In this document: positions 5,701 to 13,606 of the stretch, in pieces | Position numbering within the stretch: position 1 is the first letter of the stretch | Layout: each line of letters begins with the position of its first letter | Assembly (NCBI GenBank): GCA_019448385.1 | Contig: JAGTXO010000067.1 | Span: 1-64,000, forward strand | DNA: 64,000 nucleotides | Direction of reading: 5' to 3' | Origin: Diacronema lutheri | Lineage: Eukaryota; Haptophyta; Pavlovophyceae; Pavlovales; Pavlovaceae | Translations under genes and position numbers: made by a program | Notes under the pieces: generated by a model | The model's input: only the letters and a program-made list of their open reading frames with translations | Told to the model about the DNA's origin: nothing | The model's database searches: none

Positions 5701-8326
5701 CGGTGCATGAGCGCTTAGCGTGCGCGGGCGCCTCGTAAGGGGCCTAGGGGAAATAAGGGAAGGGAGGGAAAGGGGTGGTTGCACGGGCGCACGGGACGGA
5801 GAGGCGCGACACGGGGCGCAGGGCGCGCCAGAGACGAGCGAGCTGGTCTTGAGGGGCCTCCGTCCCTCCCCCCCCCCCCCCCCCCTCCCCCCCCAGAGCG
5901 TCTCCTTACTCGTTCGGATAGCCATCGCGCGCCACCTCGGGCCGCTCGCGCGTCGAGGCGCGCAAAATTCCGACGCAGCAGCCCGGCCGCGCCGCGCTCC
6001 GCCTTCCAAGCGCAAATCCAACCGACGCGCTCACCATCACGCCGCCACCTCCGCCCGTGAGCAGATGCCAGCCGCACTGCGCGACCCACTGCCCCAAAGG
6101 CTCTGCAAGGTGCGCCATCCTGCGCTCTGAGGAGCCAAGGACCGCAATCACTGGCACGCGCCGCACGCCGTCCGGCAGGTCGTACCCGTCACGCGTGACG
6201 CCACCGCCGCGGGTTACGCCGTCGATGCCAGCGCCGCTTCCGCCGCCATCGTGGTCGTCGCCGCGACTGTCAGCGCAGTACACCCCGCTCCCGCGCTCGC
6301 CTGCGGCCGCGGCCGCCGCGCCACGCTCGGCGTCGCCGCCGGCCTCCTCGCCGCCGTCGTCAGCGCCAGCGCCGCCAGCGCCGCCGTCGTTGCCGTCGTT
6401 GACGCCATTGGCGCAGCCGCCTCCCCGCCGCGCGGCGGCACCGCCCTCTTCCGCAAGCGCACAGCCGCCCGCTCCCCACGCGCCGCCGCCGCCCGAGCCG
6501 CCCACCAAGCCGCTCGCTGCCGCAGCCAGCGTACCCAGCGCGCTGGAAAGCTGTAACGGACGGCGGTCGCCGAGCAACGCCGCGGAGAGGGCACCGGGCG
6601 AGCGCGCGAGCGGCAGCTGCACAAGCTCGAGCAATGGCGGCGGTGGCGGCGGTGGCGGCGCGGGTGGCGAGCAGGCGCGGGCTGTGTTGCCGGCTGCGGC
6701 GTCCACGGCGCAGTCGCCCGCCACAGCGGCGCCCGCCACGTCCACGTGGACGCGTCCATCGGCGACAGCGCCCGTGGCCAATGCGCTGACAGGTAAGAGC
6801 GGGCGCGCGCTCCGCACGGCGCGCGGGCTGACGCACCCCGCGCCCTCCGCCATTACGCGCGCATCCGCACGGCTGCAAGCCACCAGCGCCCCGCCGGCCT
6901 CAACGACGACGTCGAGCGGCGTGTGCGCACCTGCGCTACTGCTGTCTGCCTCTACCGCGGAGAAGCCAGCCGCAGCGCAGTCGAACGATGGCGACTCGCC
7001 CACGGCCTCAGCCGCAGGCGCCGCGCTCCCATCGCCCATGCCATCCGCAGCCACCCCGGACAGCGCAGCAGCCACCGCGCGGGAGGCGTGCGGCGTGTCG
7101 GCAGCGCTGTCCGCGCCTGCGCCGCCGGCGCCGCCGCGCAGCGCGGGCGCGTGGGTGCACGCGCTGCCGGCCTGCCCACCGCAGGCGGAGACGGCCTGCC
7201 CACCGCAGGTGGAGACGGCGCCCGCCGCGACGGACCGGCGCCTGCTCGCGAGCGCGCCACCACCGCTTGCGTCGCTTGGCCGCCTGCTCATCGCACCGCC
7301 GCCACCGCCGCCGCCTGCGCCTGCGCGTGCGTCGCTTGGCCGCCTGCTCATCGCATTGCCGCCACCGCCACCACCACCGCCACCGCCGCCACCGCTTGCG
7401 TCGCTTGGCCGCCTGCTCATCGCATTGCCGCCACCGCCACCACCACCGCCGCCGCCGCCACCGCTTGCGCCGCTTGGCCGCCTGCTCATCGCATTGCCGC
7501 CAACGCCACCACCACCGCCACCGCCGCCACCGCCCGTGCCTACGCCGCCGCAGCTTCTGCCATCGCCGCCACCGCCGCCATCGTGCAGTGGAGGCGCGCC
7601 CGATGAGCGCCGGCTGCCTGTGCGCCCGATGAGCGCGAGCACGCCAGTTGGCGGCCGGCCCGCGCGCACGCACACGTCAACCCACGCGGGCGTGCCGTCG
7701 GCGGTTACGCCCGCGAATGCGGCGTGCGCGGGGGTGACGGGCGCGTAGCAGACGATGGGCCGGCCGTACTCTCGCGCGAGGCTGACGAACTCGGGCGCGA
7801 CCGGCGCGTCGGGTGCGCTGGCAGGCCGCGAGCGCGCGCCGGGCATGACCTGGTGCATGACCTGGTCGGCCGCGGCGGCCGCGGCGGGCGCGCGCGCCGT
7901 CGGATCGGCGCGGCGATCGTCGCGCAGCGCGGAGGGCAGCACGACGACGACATCGGCGGTAAGCGCGCCAATCGCCGCGAGGTCCGCCGGGTCGGTCAGA
8001 TGGCAGACGATCGGCAACTCCGCGCGCTCGGGCACGCCGGCGACGACGGCGGATGCTGGCGGCGGCGCGTCGGGCGCGTCCGGGCGCGGCACGATGGCGA
8101 TGACGAGCCCGCGCCGGCCACGCGCTCGCGCGAATGCGTCGGCCACCTCGATGGCGAGGGGGCCGCGCGTGGCGGAGAGCAGGTGCAGCCCGGAGCACGC
8201 CACCCATTGCCCGACCTCGACCAACGCGCGCCGCTCTGCCGCGCTCACGCCGCGGAGCGGGCCGCCGCCGCAGACGACGGCCGCGATGCGCCGACGCTCG
8301 GCGCGGCGCGCGTCGAGAGAGGACAT
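2748..8326 (-). CDS. Two-domain SLOG (LOG/TIGR00725-like) protein with long low-complexity linker and tail
   Basis: Three exons: 8326-5910, 5562-5407 and 4389-2748 (taa), 1,404 residues. The start is the ATG at 8326 (MSSLDARRAERRR); upstream in-frame M codons would crowd the divergent neighbour. Residues ~13-240 form a first Rossmann-like SLOG domain (IAAVVCGGGPLRGVSAAERR, then LTADVVVVLPSALR) without the catalytic-type motif. A linker of ~480 residues is mostly Gly/Ala/Ser with MSRRPSDASGGG repeats. The second SLOG domain (~720-910) is complete across both splice junctions: VPVIAVLGSSERRMAHLAEP, HLLTGGGGGVMVSAS, GYPNDFVDTAIRTHLP, SRNHLNLLSAS and the signature PGGEGTASE (~844-852), then YGVPV. 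This wording is that of TIGR00725/SLOG proteins, which bind nucleotides or their derivatives. About 490 disordered residues follow. The substrate is unknown; LOG phosphoribohydrolase activity is possible but unproven. Confidence 0.85.
4495..5116 (-). repeat. 62-bp minisatellite filling intron 2 of the SLOG gene
   Basis: About ten copies of a 62-bp unit, recognisable by ccattgag at 4553, 4615, 4677 and so on, with scattered single-base changes (attgcagtag versus atcgcagcag). It occupies more than half of the 1,017-nt intron 5406-4390. The period is not a multiple of three, so the long open frames across it are not expected to be coding. Confidence 0.93.
7255..7565 (-). repeat. Coding tandem repeats in the SLOG linker
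   Basis: Four diverged copies of a 61-69-bp block share tcgcttggccgcctgctcat, and on the coding strand give MSRRPSDASGGG followed by glycine runs of different length. Differences between copies are whole GGN codons, as expected for slippage in a tolerated linker. Confidence 0.85.
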
Positions 8327-8456
8327 GCGCACTCGGCGGGCCTGCGTACGCGCGCCACGCGCGCGTGCCCGAGCCTGGGCAGACGCCGCGCCGTCGCGCC
8401 GCGCACGTGCGGGCCGGGCCACCGGCCGGGCGTTTTCGTCGTTTCAACGGCCGACG
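8327..8456. promoter_or_regulatory. Divergent promoter between SLOG and FAM72-RING genes
   Basis: 130 bp between the two inferred start codons must contain both 5' ends. It is GC-rich apart from cgttttcgtcgtttcaacgg at 8431-8450, just upstream of the + strand ATG. No recognisable TATA box. Confidence 0.5.
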
Positions 8457-9659
8457 ATGGCGGCGGGCGTTGAGGACGACGACGATGCACCCGTCCTCAT
8501 CCTGTGTTGCCGCGCTTGCGCGGTGGTGGTGTGCCGGCGCGGCATGCGCGTCTCGCTCTGCGCAGACCCATCCATTGCTCTCTACTCCACGGACTTTGCG
8601 CCCGCCGCGCTCACGCACGCCGCGAGCGCGCGCGCGATCGAGACGTGCGCGTGCTTGATCGTCGACCTCCTCTGCTCCGGCTGCACGCGCTCGCGCCGGC
8701 CGACGTCGCGCGCGAGCGCGCGTGCCACCGCGAGTGGCGCGCCCACGCGTGGTCGTGTCGGCTACCACGTCGTCGCGCCGTGCGAAGAGTGCTGGTCGAA
8801 CGGAGACCACAATGAGCATCACTTTATCTTTGACGCGACCAGCGTCGTTGCGGCGCCGTGGCCGCAGCTCGGCGGCGAGCCGCCGATGACGTGGGCGCGG
8901 CTGCGGCTGTTTGACGGCGTGCGCTCGCCGCTCGTCTTTGCGCGCGCGTGCACCGCGCCTCGCGCGCGCACTCCGACCAACGCGCGCGCGGGACGTGGCC
9001 ACCGTGCGATCACAACGGGCGGCGCGCGCGAGGGCTCCGCCGAGGTTGGCGAGGGCGAAGTGGCGGACGCGCTCGAGTGCGCGATCTGCCTCGGCCCGCC
9101 GCGCGACGCCGTGCGGCTGCGCGCGTGCGGCCACATCTTCTGCGAGCTATGCGTCACGCGGCACGTCGACCACGCGCGGGCGTGCCCCCTCGATCGACGG
9201 CCGGCGAGCGCGCTCGATGTGCTGCCCGACGAGGTGGCGCGGCGGGCCGTCGGCAGGCTGCGTGTGCACTGCCGGTACGGCTGCGCGCGCCCGACGCGCG
9301 CGTCGCCACCTGCGAAACGCGTGCGGCGCGCGTACGCACCGTTGGCCGACGGCGTTGCGCCCGACGGCGGCGGCGGCGACGACGACGACGACGGCAGTGG
9401 CTGCGCGTACCGCTGCGCCGAGTGGGACGCCGGGCTGCGCGCGGAAGCGTGGGTGGCCGCGCCGGCCAGCGCGGCGCGCCCCGCCCACTGCCCGACCGTC
9501 GCGCCGCTTGCGCGGATCGGGGCGCACGAGGCGCGGTGCGCGGTGCGGTGCCTCGCGCGAGCGTGCGTCGAGGCGGCGCGCGCGCTGCATGCGCGCGGTG
9601 CGCGTGTGGCCTCGCGCGAGCTGGAAGCCGGGGTCGTCGACGAGGGTGCGCGGTCGTGA
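8457..9659 (+). CDS. FAM72-domain protein fused to a TRAF-type RING finger
   Basis: One exon, 400 residues, ATG at 8457 (MAAGVEDDDDAP). Residues ~12-140 match FAM72: VLILCCRACAVVVCRRGM, L.ADPSIALYSTD, a Cys pair (ETCACLIVDLLCSGC), VGYHVVAPCEECWSNGDHN and HFIFDA, the order of human FAM72A (LCC..C...RGM, ADTEIDLFSTD, VGYHVIVPCSSC). A Ser/Arg/Ala insert sits before VGYHV. After a linker, residues 208-246 form a RING (CAIC, CGH, FCELC, CPLD) whose last ligand is Asp, as in TRAF6 (CPVD). LDVLPDEVARRAVGRL and HCRYGC then follow the TRAF RING-to-zinc-finger order, with further Cys/His pairs to the end. Known: FAM72A binds nuclear uracil-DNA glycosylase UNG2 and lowers its level. Inferred: this protein is a ubiquitin ligase using FAM72 as its recognition module. 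Confidence 0.88.
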   Translation: MAAGVEDDDDAPVLILCCRACAVVVCRRGMRVSLCADPSIALYSTDFAPAALTHAASARAIETCACLIVDLLCSGCTRSRRPTSRASARATASGAPTRGRVGYHVVAPCEECWSNGDHNEHHFIFDATSVVAAPWPQLGGEPPMTWARLRLFDGVRSPLVFARACTAPRARTPTNARAGRGHRAITTGGAREGSAEVGEGEVADALECAICLGPPRDAVRLRACGHIFCELCVTRHVDHARACPLDRRPASALDVLPDEVARRAVGRLRVHCRYGCARPTRASPPAKRVRRAYAPLADGVAPDGGGGDDDDDGSGCAYRCAEWDAGLRAEAWVAAPASAARPAHCPTVAPLARIGAHEARCAVRCLARACVEAARALHARGARVASRELEAGVVDEGARS

Positions 9660-11751: not shown

Positions 11752-11932
11752 GTTGTCGCCGCTCGGCCTGTAAGTGGCTGAGTCGCCTGACTGAATGTCT
11801 GGACTCCAGTCGCCTGAGTTTTTTTCCCGCGCGGATGTGAGAGGGACGGAAGGGTTAAATTCAATCGGCAGCCGAAGTCCATCCGCAGCCAGCGGAGGTC
11901 AAACGCGCACCACCGCGCTCAACCAGAAGCAC

Positions 11933-13606
11933 ATGCACGGCGAGATGATCCGAGTCGCGCTCGCGTCGGCGATCATGGCAAGCACAGCGGCGCGCTCGGC
12001 GACGAGCGCCAACGTCTTCCTCCCCATCGTCGCTGCGCTCGTGCCGACCGGGTTGGGCGTCGCATCGGCGGGCGAGACGGGCGAGCAGGCGCGGCATTCG
12101 GCGGGATGGTTTGGATCGTCGCACGAGGGCGGCACGCAGCAGGACAAGCCGGCGTCGGAGCGCGCTGCGGACACTATGCGCGACACCGCCGACACGGTCA
12201 AAGAGCGCGCACGCGACGCGACGTCGGGCTGGGGCGCGTCCGCCGAGCGCAAGGCAGACGAGCACGCGGCCGCCGACCGCGCCAAGGGCTGGGGCGACTC
12301 GGTGAAGGAGACGCTCGGCATGAAGGAGCCGAGCGCGGCCGAGCGCGCGGCTGAGCAGGCGCGCCAGACCAAGGACCAGGCCAAGGAGGGCGCCAAGGGC
12401 TGGGGCGACTCGGTGAAGGAGACGCTCGGCATGAAGGAGCCGAGCGCGGCCGAGCGCGCGACCGACCAGGCGCGCCGCACGATGGACCAGGCCAAGCAGT
12501 CGGCGGGCGAGGGCAGCTCCTACGTCGGAGGTGCGCGCGCGCATGCACCATAAGACCAGCGCCGCGCTTGTGTGTCCGCGTCGTGCGCTCGCGCTCGCGT
12601 TGACACACCGACGCATCAATCGTTTTGTCGTGCACACGCCGCGCTTGGGAGCAGATAAGCTCAACAGCGCCAAGGAGTCGGTGAAGGGCTCGGTTGGTAT
12701 GCAGACGGAGGAGGAGAAAGCCGCCGAGCGCGCTATGGAGGGCGCCAAGGGCTGGGGCGACTCGGTGAAGGAGACGCTCGGCATGAAGGAGCCAAGCGCG
12801 GCCGAGCGCGCGGCTGAGCAGGCGCGCCAGACCAAGGACCAGGCCAAGGAGGGCGCCAAGGGCTGGGGCGACTCGGTGAAGGAGACGCTCGGCATGAAGG
12901 AGCCAAGCGCGGCCGAGCGCGCTGCTGAGCAGGCGCGCCAGACCAAGGACCAGGCCAAGGAGGGCGCCAAGGGCTGGGGCGACTCGGTGAAGGAGACGCT
13001 CGGCATGAAGGAGCCAAGCGCGGCCGAGCGCGCGGCTGAGCAGGCGCGCCAGACCAAGGACCAGGCCAAGGAGGGCGCCAAGGGCTGGGGCGATTCGGTC
13101 AAGGAGACGCTCGGCATGAAGGAGCCGAGCGCGGCCGATCGCGCGGCCGAGCAGGCGCGCCAGACCAAGGACCAGGCCAAGGAGGGTGCCAAGGGCTGGG
13201 GCGACTCGGTGAAGGAGACGCTCGGCATGAAGGAGCCAAGCGCGGCCGAGCGCACGACCGACCAGGCGCGCCGCACGATGGACCAGGCCAAGCAGTCGGC
13301 GGGCGAGGGCAGCTCCTACGTCGGAGGTGCGCGCGCGCGCATGGCGCCCGCGCACCCACGTGCATGGCGGTCTGTGTGCCCGCGCTGCTCATGCGCGCGC
13401 TCGCGGTGGCGCCGCCTCCCCTCCTCTCCCGACGAGCAGACAAGCTGCACGACGCCAAGGAGTCGGCGAAGGACACGCTCGGCATGAAGAGCGAGGAGGA
13501 GAAGGCGGCCGATGCAGCGGCCAAGCGGACTGGCGTCGAGGGCGCGTGGGAGTCGGCCAAGGAGCACGGCAAGAATCTCAAGGACTCGATGAAGGCGGAT
13601 CTGTAA
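11933..13606 (+). CDS. LEA-like repeat protein with signal peptide
   Basis: Three exons: 11933-12530, 12655-13326 and 13440-13606 (taa), 478 residues. The N-terminus (MHGEMIRVALASAIMAS..) is hydrophobic and probably a signal or transit peptide; ATG 11945 is an alternative. The body is seven copies of a 37-residue amphipathic unit (KGWGDSVKETLGMKEPS plus AAERAAEQARQTKDQAKE), rich in Ala, Lys, Glu, Gln and Asp with almost no Cys, the composition of group 3 LEA proteins. Exons 1 and 2 both end in GEGSSYVG and both introns open with gtgcgcgcgc, so the exon was probably duplicated; exons 2 and 3 begin DKL..AKES. Known of the family: desiccation and stress protection by disordered helices. Function here is inferred. 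Confidence 0.8.
12280..13255 (+). repeat. 111-bp coding repeats of the LEA-like gene
   Basis: Seven copies of a 111-bp unit (two at the end of exon 1, five in exon 2), starting at aagggctggggcgactcggt or a near copy and spaced 111 bp within each exon. Copies are almost identical at third positions, which indicates recent duplication or homogenisation. Confidence 0.93.

Follow-up and report, generated by a model that had tools for sequence, protein, structure and literature searches.

Positions 8457 to 9659 of the window, on the plus strand, hold an open reading frame that begins with ATG at 8457, ends with TGA at 9657-9659 and encodes 400 residues without interruption, as the sequence-only reading of this DNA had claimed. 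The window spans bases 1 to 64,000 of contig C101 in a 43,492,796-base, 103-contig assembly and has a GC content of ~75%; the genome of Diacronema lutheri NIVA-4/92 has been described as 43.503 Mb in 103 contigs, with 73.25% GC and 45% single-exon genes (PMC8379373). The encoded protein, P0001, joins a FAM72 domain to a RING domain and is laid out as follows.

8457..9659, plus strand: whole open reading frame, FAM72-RING fusion protein P0001, 400 aa (no internal stops; homologous fusions)
8490..8687, plus strand: FAM72 domain, part one, residues 12-77 (PF14976, E 3.4e-17; conservation)
8685..8756, plus strand: Arg/Ser-rich insertion within the FAM72 domain, residues about 77-100 (alignments)
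8757..8921, plus strand: FAM72 domain, part two, residues 101-155 (alignment and conservation)
8922..9065, plus strand: linker, residues 156-203 (alignment; length variable among the fusions)
9066..9206, plus strand: RING domain, residues 204-250 (Pfam; ligand pattern; TRAF6 chain, E 3e-9)
9207..9311, plus strand: linker after the RING plus the first Cys pair of a TRAF-like finger, residues 251-285, with HCRYGC (TRAF6 profile match)
9408..9554, plus strand: C-terminal Cys/His cluster, residues about 318-366 (alignments; matches no Pfam family)

By a composition-only estimate, 400 codons would stay open by chance with a probability of ~0.006 and the 48 codons of the linker with one of 0.55, so at such a high GC content the openness of the frame is only modest evidence for a gene. 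GC at the third codon position tops that at the other two in seven of nine segments of the frame; it is not highest in the Arg/Ser-rich insertion and in the last 25 residues, and the contrast is slight in the linker.

Two other frames of the window were also observed. A divergent one on the minus strand (window 5906-8422) matches the SLOG cluster4 (LOG-like) domain with an E of 1.8e-12, and an ATG at 8326 (MSSLDARR) would set its start ~130 bases from that of the fusion. On the plus strand, the frame at window 11795-12553 has near-identical repeats containing KGWGDSVKETLGMKEPSAAERA, reminiscent of LEA-type repeat proteins; its only match is a weak one to Oleosin, below the cut-off.

Relatives and origin of the fusion

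The whole protein was searched against ~5.8 billion proteins, of which the 8000 candidates with the most shared words were scored; a profile search based on the FAM72 part was limited in the same way, and the counts of fusions and stand-alone proteins are lower bounds. The whole-protein search gave at least three relatives (P0002-P0004), 45-48% identical over 90-98% of the query and each carrying FAM72 and RING domains, and using the FAM72 part of P0004 as query added one more fusion, P0049. The FAM72-part profile search returned at least 44 proteins, one of them the fusion P0007, in which a divergent RING containing CPLDRRP comes after the FAM72 domain. A search for proteins with both domains, which the sequence-only reading had proposed, has in all yielded at least five further fusions among environmental sequences, 37-57% identical to P0001 and with the same domain order. 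Because the same fusion is carried by five other sequences, P0001 is judged to be one protein, and sequence comparison confirms the gene as a real FAM72-RING fusion.

The remaining 43 of the 44 proteins have PF14976 alone in their precomputed annotation and show no RING-like pattern by a pattern script that detects all six fusions. P0007 can be aligned with P0004 through both domains (34% identity, E 3e-32, in a single BLAST comparison), and its RING part alone matches each other fusion with an E of 1.6e-7 or better in this set of five sequences; P0007 may lack part of its C-terminus.

In a tree of the FAM72 domain, fusions and stand-alone proteins fall on opposite sides of a branch with support 99/98. 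This tree is unrooted, was built from the six fusions plus 12 stand-alone proteins picked from the 43 to cover their spread, leaves 8 of 15 inner branches open and places P0007 on a long branch. It is compatible with a fusion that arose once but does not prove it, and the stand-alone proteins with a named source come from animals and fungi, so that fusion status is confounded with taxonomy. Scans of viral contigs and genome contigs gave no relatives in viruses or prokaryotes, and the open-licence literature searched, as far as it was accessible, gave no prior description of a FAM72-RING fusion.

The FAM72 and RING halves

PF14976 matches P0001 in two stretches with 63.4 bits against a cut-off of 27 (E 3.4e-17), and the six-frame match lies at 8487-8687. 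The FAM72 signature reported from the sequence alone is thereby recovered with a profile; the sequence-only reading had placed the domain in residues 10-140, and the best stretch was found at residues 12-77. In the whole 43.5 Mb assembly PF14976 has a single match, the fusion gene. Part one of the domain contains the conserved C18, C21, C64, C66, C73 and C76 together with an STD motif, and part two VGYHVV, C109/C112, F125 (human F104) and W146 (human W125). All six fusions retain the eight cysteines and the N and H of the NxH motif, and the other five exceed the PF14976 cut-off with 72.6 to 93.1 bits. A sequence search for a solved FAM72 structure found none.

Between the two parts lies the Arg/Ser-rich insertion, 20-odd residues present in five of the six fusions (missing from P0007) and missing from all 14 aligned stand-alone FAM72 proteins, although P0005 among these carries an unrelated insertion at the same site. 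Its lengths vary by whole residues and the five fusions have a TRS(R)RxxSR core in common, on which grounds an unspliced intron was judged unlikely. In the linker, a short in-frame intron could still be present.

The RING ligands of P0001 are C208, C211, C224, H226, C229, C232, C243 and D246. Five Pfam RING families exceed their cut-offs within residues 206-250 (best E 8e-8), which bears out the description of a RING with Asp as its eighth ligand (CPLD), that is, of C3HC3D type. The eight ligands are kept in this order in all six fusions, of which P0001-P0004 and P0049 have a Pfam RING above the cut-off and P0007 one below it. All six likewise keep the proline of CPLD and the Arg that follows the last ligand, and five keep the isoleucine of CxIC (V in P0007); these positions have E2-contact and linchpin roles in RING domains.

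The TRAF-type zinc fingers of the sequence-only reading held up in part. A profile of five fusions ranks TRAF6 first (E 9.5e-14), and the likeness runs from the C3HC3D RING across the linker behind it into the next finger, as far as its first Cys pair. Among the 11 Pfam families reported for the fusion at E up to 10, neither zf-TRAF nor TRAF-C/MATH appears, in contrast to TRAF6. C320, C345, H357, C361 and C365 are invariant in four- and five-sequence alignments of fusions, but they match no Pfam family, so the TRAF-type fingers are a resemblance; the spacing of these residues is wider than in TRAF fingers. That a close paralogue donated the RING half was considered and rejected, as the genome gives, besides the gene itself, three weak matches (E 0.005 to 0.009).

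A proposed one-chain ligase and its possible client

In mammals, FAM72A has been described as a substrate adaptor of the CTLH-MKLN1 ligase for UNG2 (PMC12223117), bridging UNG2 to MKLN1 with the result that UNG2 is ubiquitinated (PMC12223117; PMC12687426), and the kelch repeats of muskelin are reported to hold the FAM72A C-terminus (PMC12871134). FAM72A is also described as a structural homologue of YPEL5, with a CULT fold common to cereblon (PMC12687426). The earlier suggestion that the fusion accounts for the lowering of UNG by FAM72 is therefore outdated for mammals, and by analogy the fusion would be a single-chain form of the mammalian adaptor logic rather than its missing explanation. 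With YPEL5 and cereblon it would have in common the fold family and the association with E3 ligases (PMC12687426); they are separate subunits of multiprotein ligases, whereas the fusion has receptor and RING in one chain.

The stand-alone FAM72A (Ugene) and the fusion have in common the PF14976 family, the eight cysteines and the F104 and W125 positions; they differ in the Arg/Ser-rich insertion of five of the six fusions and in the tail, which in the fusion is replaced by the RING and the Cys/His region. A C-terminal Arg is found in 27 of the 43 stand-alone proteins, as EECIR in 13 and EEYLR in five, and in none of the six fusions, where the chain passes after the W125 position into linker and RING and the stand-alone type of tail is gone. 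Thirteen of the 16 stand-alone proteins without a terminal Arg are labelled isoform, partial or unnamed (such labels occur among the 27 too), and in P0016, P0020 and P0046 the chain continues beyond an internal EECIR. Many of the stand-alone proteins come from fish, so these cases are not independent. Beyond fish, the terminal Arg is seen in the molluscan P0021 and P0034, in P0024 from Rhizopus and in the metagenomic P0027 and P0038, and it is missing in P0045 from the fungus Hyaloraphidium. The RING may sit where stand-alone FAM72 has its muskelin-docking tail.

The genome of the alga had no match to PF06588 (Muskelin_N) in one search, but no control genome gave one either, so this result does not prove that muskelin is absent. 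It contains three CTLH-domain genes: one for a LisH-CTLH protein (TWA1-like), one with a weak C-terminal RING-like match (RMND5-like) and one in two pieces (MAEA-like), labels that we assign from domain order and general sequence features. A RanBP9-type gene was not among these three, and the genome has one other yippee-family match. Muskelin has been reported only in opisthokonts, and TWA1, RMND5 and MAEA across all eukaryotic supergroups, in one survey (PMC3797097).

Two genes of the UDG superfamily were found. The UNG at locus L007, a 282-aa open reading frame, exceeds the cut-off in four of five NCBIfam uracil-DNA glycosylase models, and its N-terminus, MPQTALTSFLTGKRK (starting MPQTALTSFL), has what we take, from the general PIP pattern, to be a PIP-like box followed by basic residues; the box ends in FL, not FF. 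As a separate observation, locus L006 (G000:C75:1682727-1686233) carries on the minus strand, at 121-2352, a 743-aa frame with a UNG domain (over the cut-off in five NCBIfam models) and an endonuclease III-like HhH-GPD domain (over the Pfam cut-off, with TIGR01083 below its own). This frame may encode a glycosylase/AP-lyase fusion, and it is conceivable that its linker of ~160 residues is open by chance.

In mammals, both the PIP box and the region bound by FAM72A are reported to lie within the UNG2-specific residues 1-41 (PMC10810282), and a modelling paper names F104 and W125 of FAM72A as important for UNG2 binding (PMC8616359). When positions are counted on a shark FAM72A (adding 2 gives the human numbering and puts FWMF 101-104 and W125 where the modelling paper has them), the F104 position is F and the W125 position W in all six fusions; the aligned stand-alone proteins have F in 13 and W in 12 of 14. 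Human positions 94, 99, 101, 102 and 124, of which 101, 102 and 124 are modelled contacts, vary among the fusions. Position 99, one of five at which human FAM72B-D are reported to differ from FAM72A (PMC12223117), is E, S or D in three of the six fusions (E in P0001) and G in the other three. The Arg-rich insertion could also reshape the binding face.

We favour, with modest confidence, the view that the fusion is a one-chain RING E3 whose FAM72 half selects the client, most likely UNG. The yippee-like N-terminal domain would receive the substrate, and E2 recruitment and ubiquitin transfer would fall to the C3HC3D RING and its TRAF6-like extension. The likely client would be the L007 uracil-DNA glycosylase, gripped by its PIP-box-bearing N-terminus, and a single chain would do the job of mammalian FAM72A, muskelin and the CTLH complex. 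The most economical interpretation is a ligase of one chain in which FAM72 acts as receptor. The pairing of a FAM72 adaptor with RING E3 activity, already proposed in the sequence-only reading, is the best-supported one, both domains being conserved as one protein, but the naming of UNG as the client is what we infer, as are ligase activity and the binding and turnover of UNG by the fusion. UNG is supported as candidate client because the residues linked to its binding are conserved and the genome encodes the right kind of UNG.

Alternatively, the fusion could be a FAM72-guided E3 whose main client is not UNG, for example RPA or another chromatin or replication protein, which is possible but rather unlikely. 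Human FAM72B-D are >96% identical to FAM72A and are reported not to bind UNG2 (PMC12223117), so membership of the family is no guarantee of UNG binding; FAM72A-D all bind MKLN1 in the same report, yet UNG2 was bound by A only. Contrary to it, FAM72B has elsewhere been reported to bind UNG, and RPA subunits besides (PMC11377751). A different client would also fit the Arg/Ser-rich insertion in five of the six fusions and the variable human positions 94, 99, 101 and 102, but all six retain F and W at positions 104 and 125, and the genome encodes a UNG with a PIP-like N-terminus.

It is improbable, though somewhat in keeping with TRAF6 RING regions as the best matches, that the RING half serves mainly as a dimerisation or regulatory module, or keeps FAM72 itself in check through auto-ubiquitination, and leaves a client bound by FAM72 untouched. 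Dimerisation is also seen in TRAF RING regions, and RING proteins commonly auto-ubiquitinate; however, the conservation of the eight ligands, the CPLD proline and the following Arg in all six fusions, and of the CxIC isoleucine in five, speaks against such a role. That two neighbouring genes were read as one, or that the assembly is at fault, is very improbable, since the same fusion occurs in five divergent sequences with residues conserved on both sides of the junction, even if at the GC of the window long open frames do arise by chance (~0.55 for the 48-codon linker).

To extend the one-chain ligase with FAM72 as receptor to its history, we suggest tentatively, at somewhat less than even confidence, that in a lineage apparently free of muskelin FAM72 was joined to its own RING at the site of the tail, and that the fused protein became a stand-alone UNG-degrading ligase. 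If so, FAM72-guided destruction of UNG would predate both antibody diversification and the CTLH-muskelin route, and the link of FAM72 to ubiquitin would have arisen on at least two occasions.

Most of what is known of FAM72A comes from antibody diversification and cancer, in which it delivers UNG2 to the CTLH ligase. The conserved FAM72-RING fusion of a single-celled alga gives independent evidence that FAM72 essentially serves as a receptor for ubiquitination substrates, and it suggests a role for FAM72 in uracil repair beyond immunity. The fusion may offer a compact one-chain system for this receptor function and a natural comparison by which the FAM72 surfaces for client binding could be told from those for docking to a ligase.
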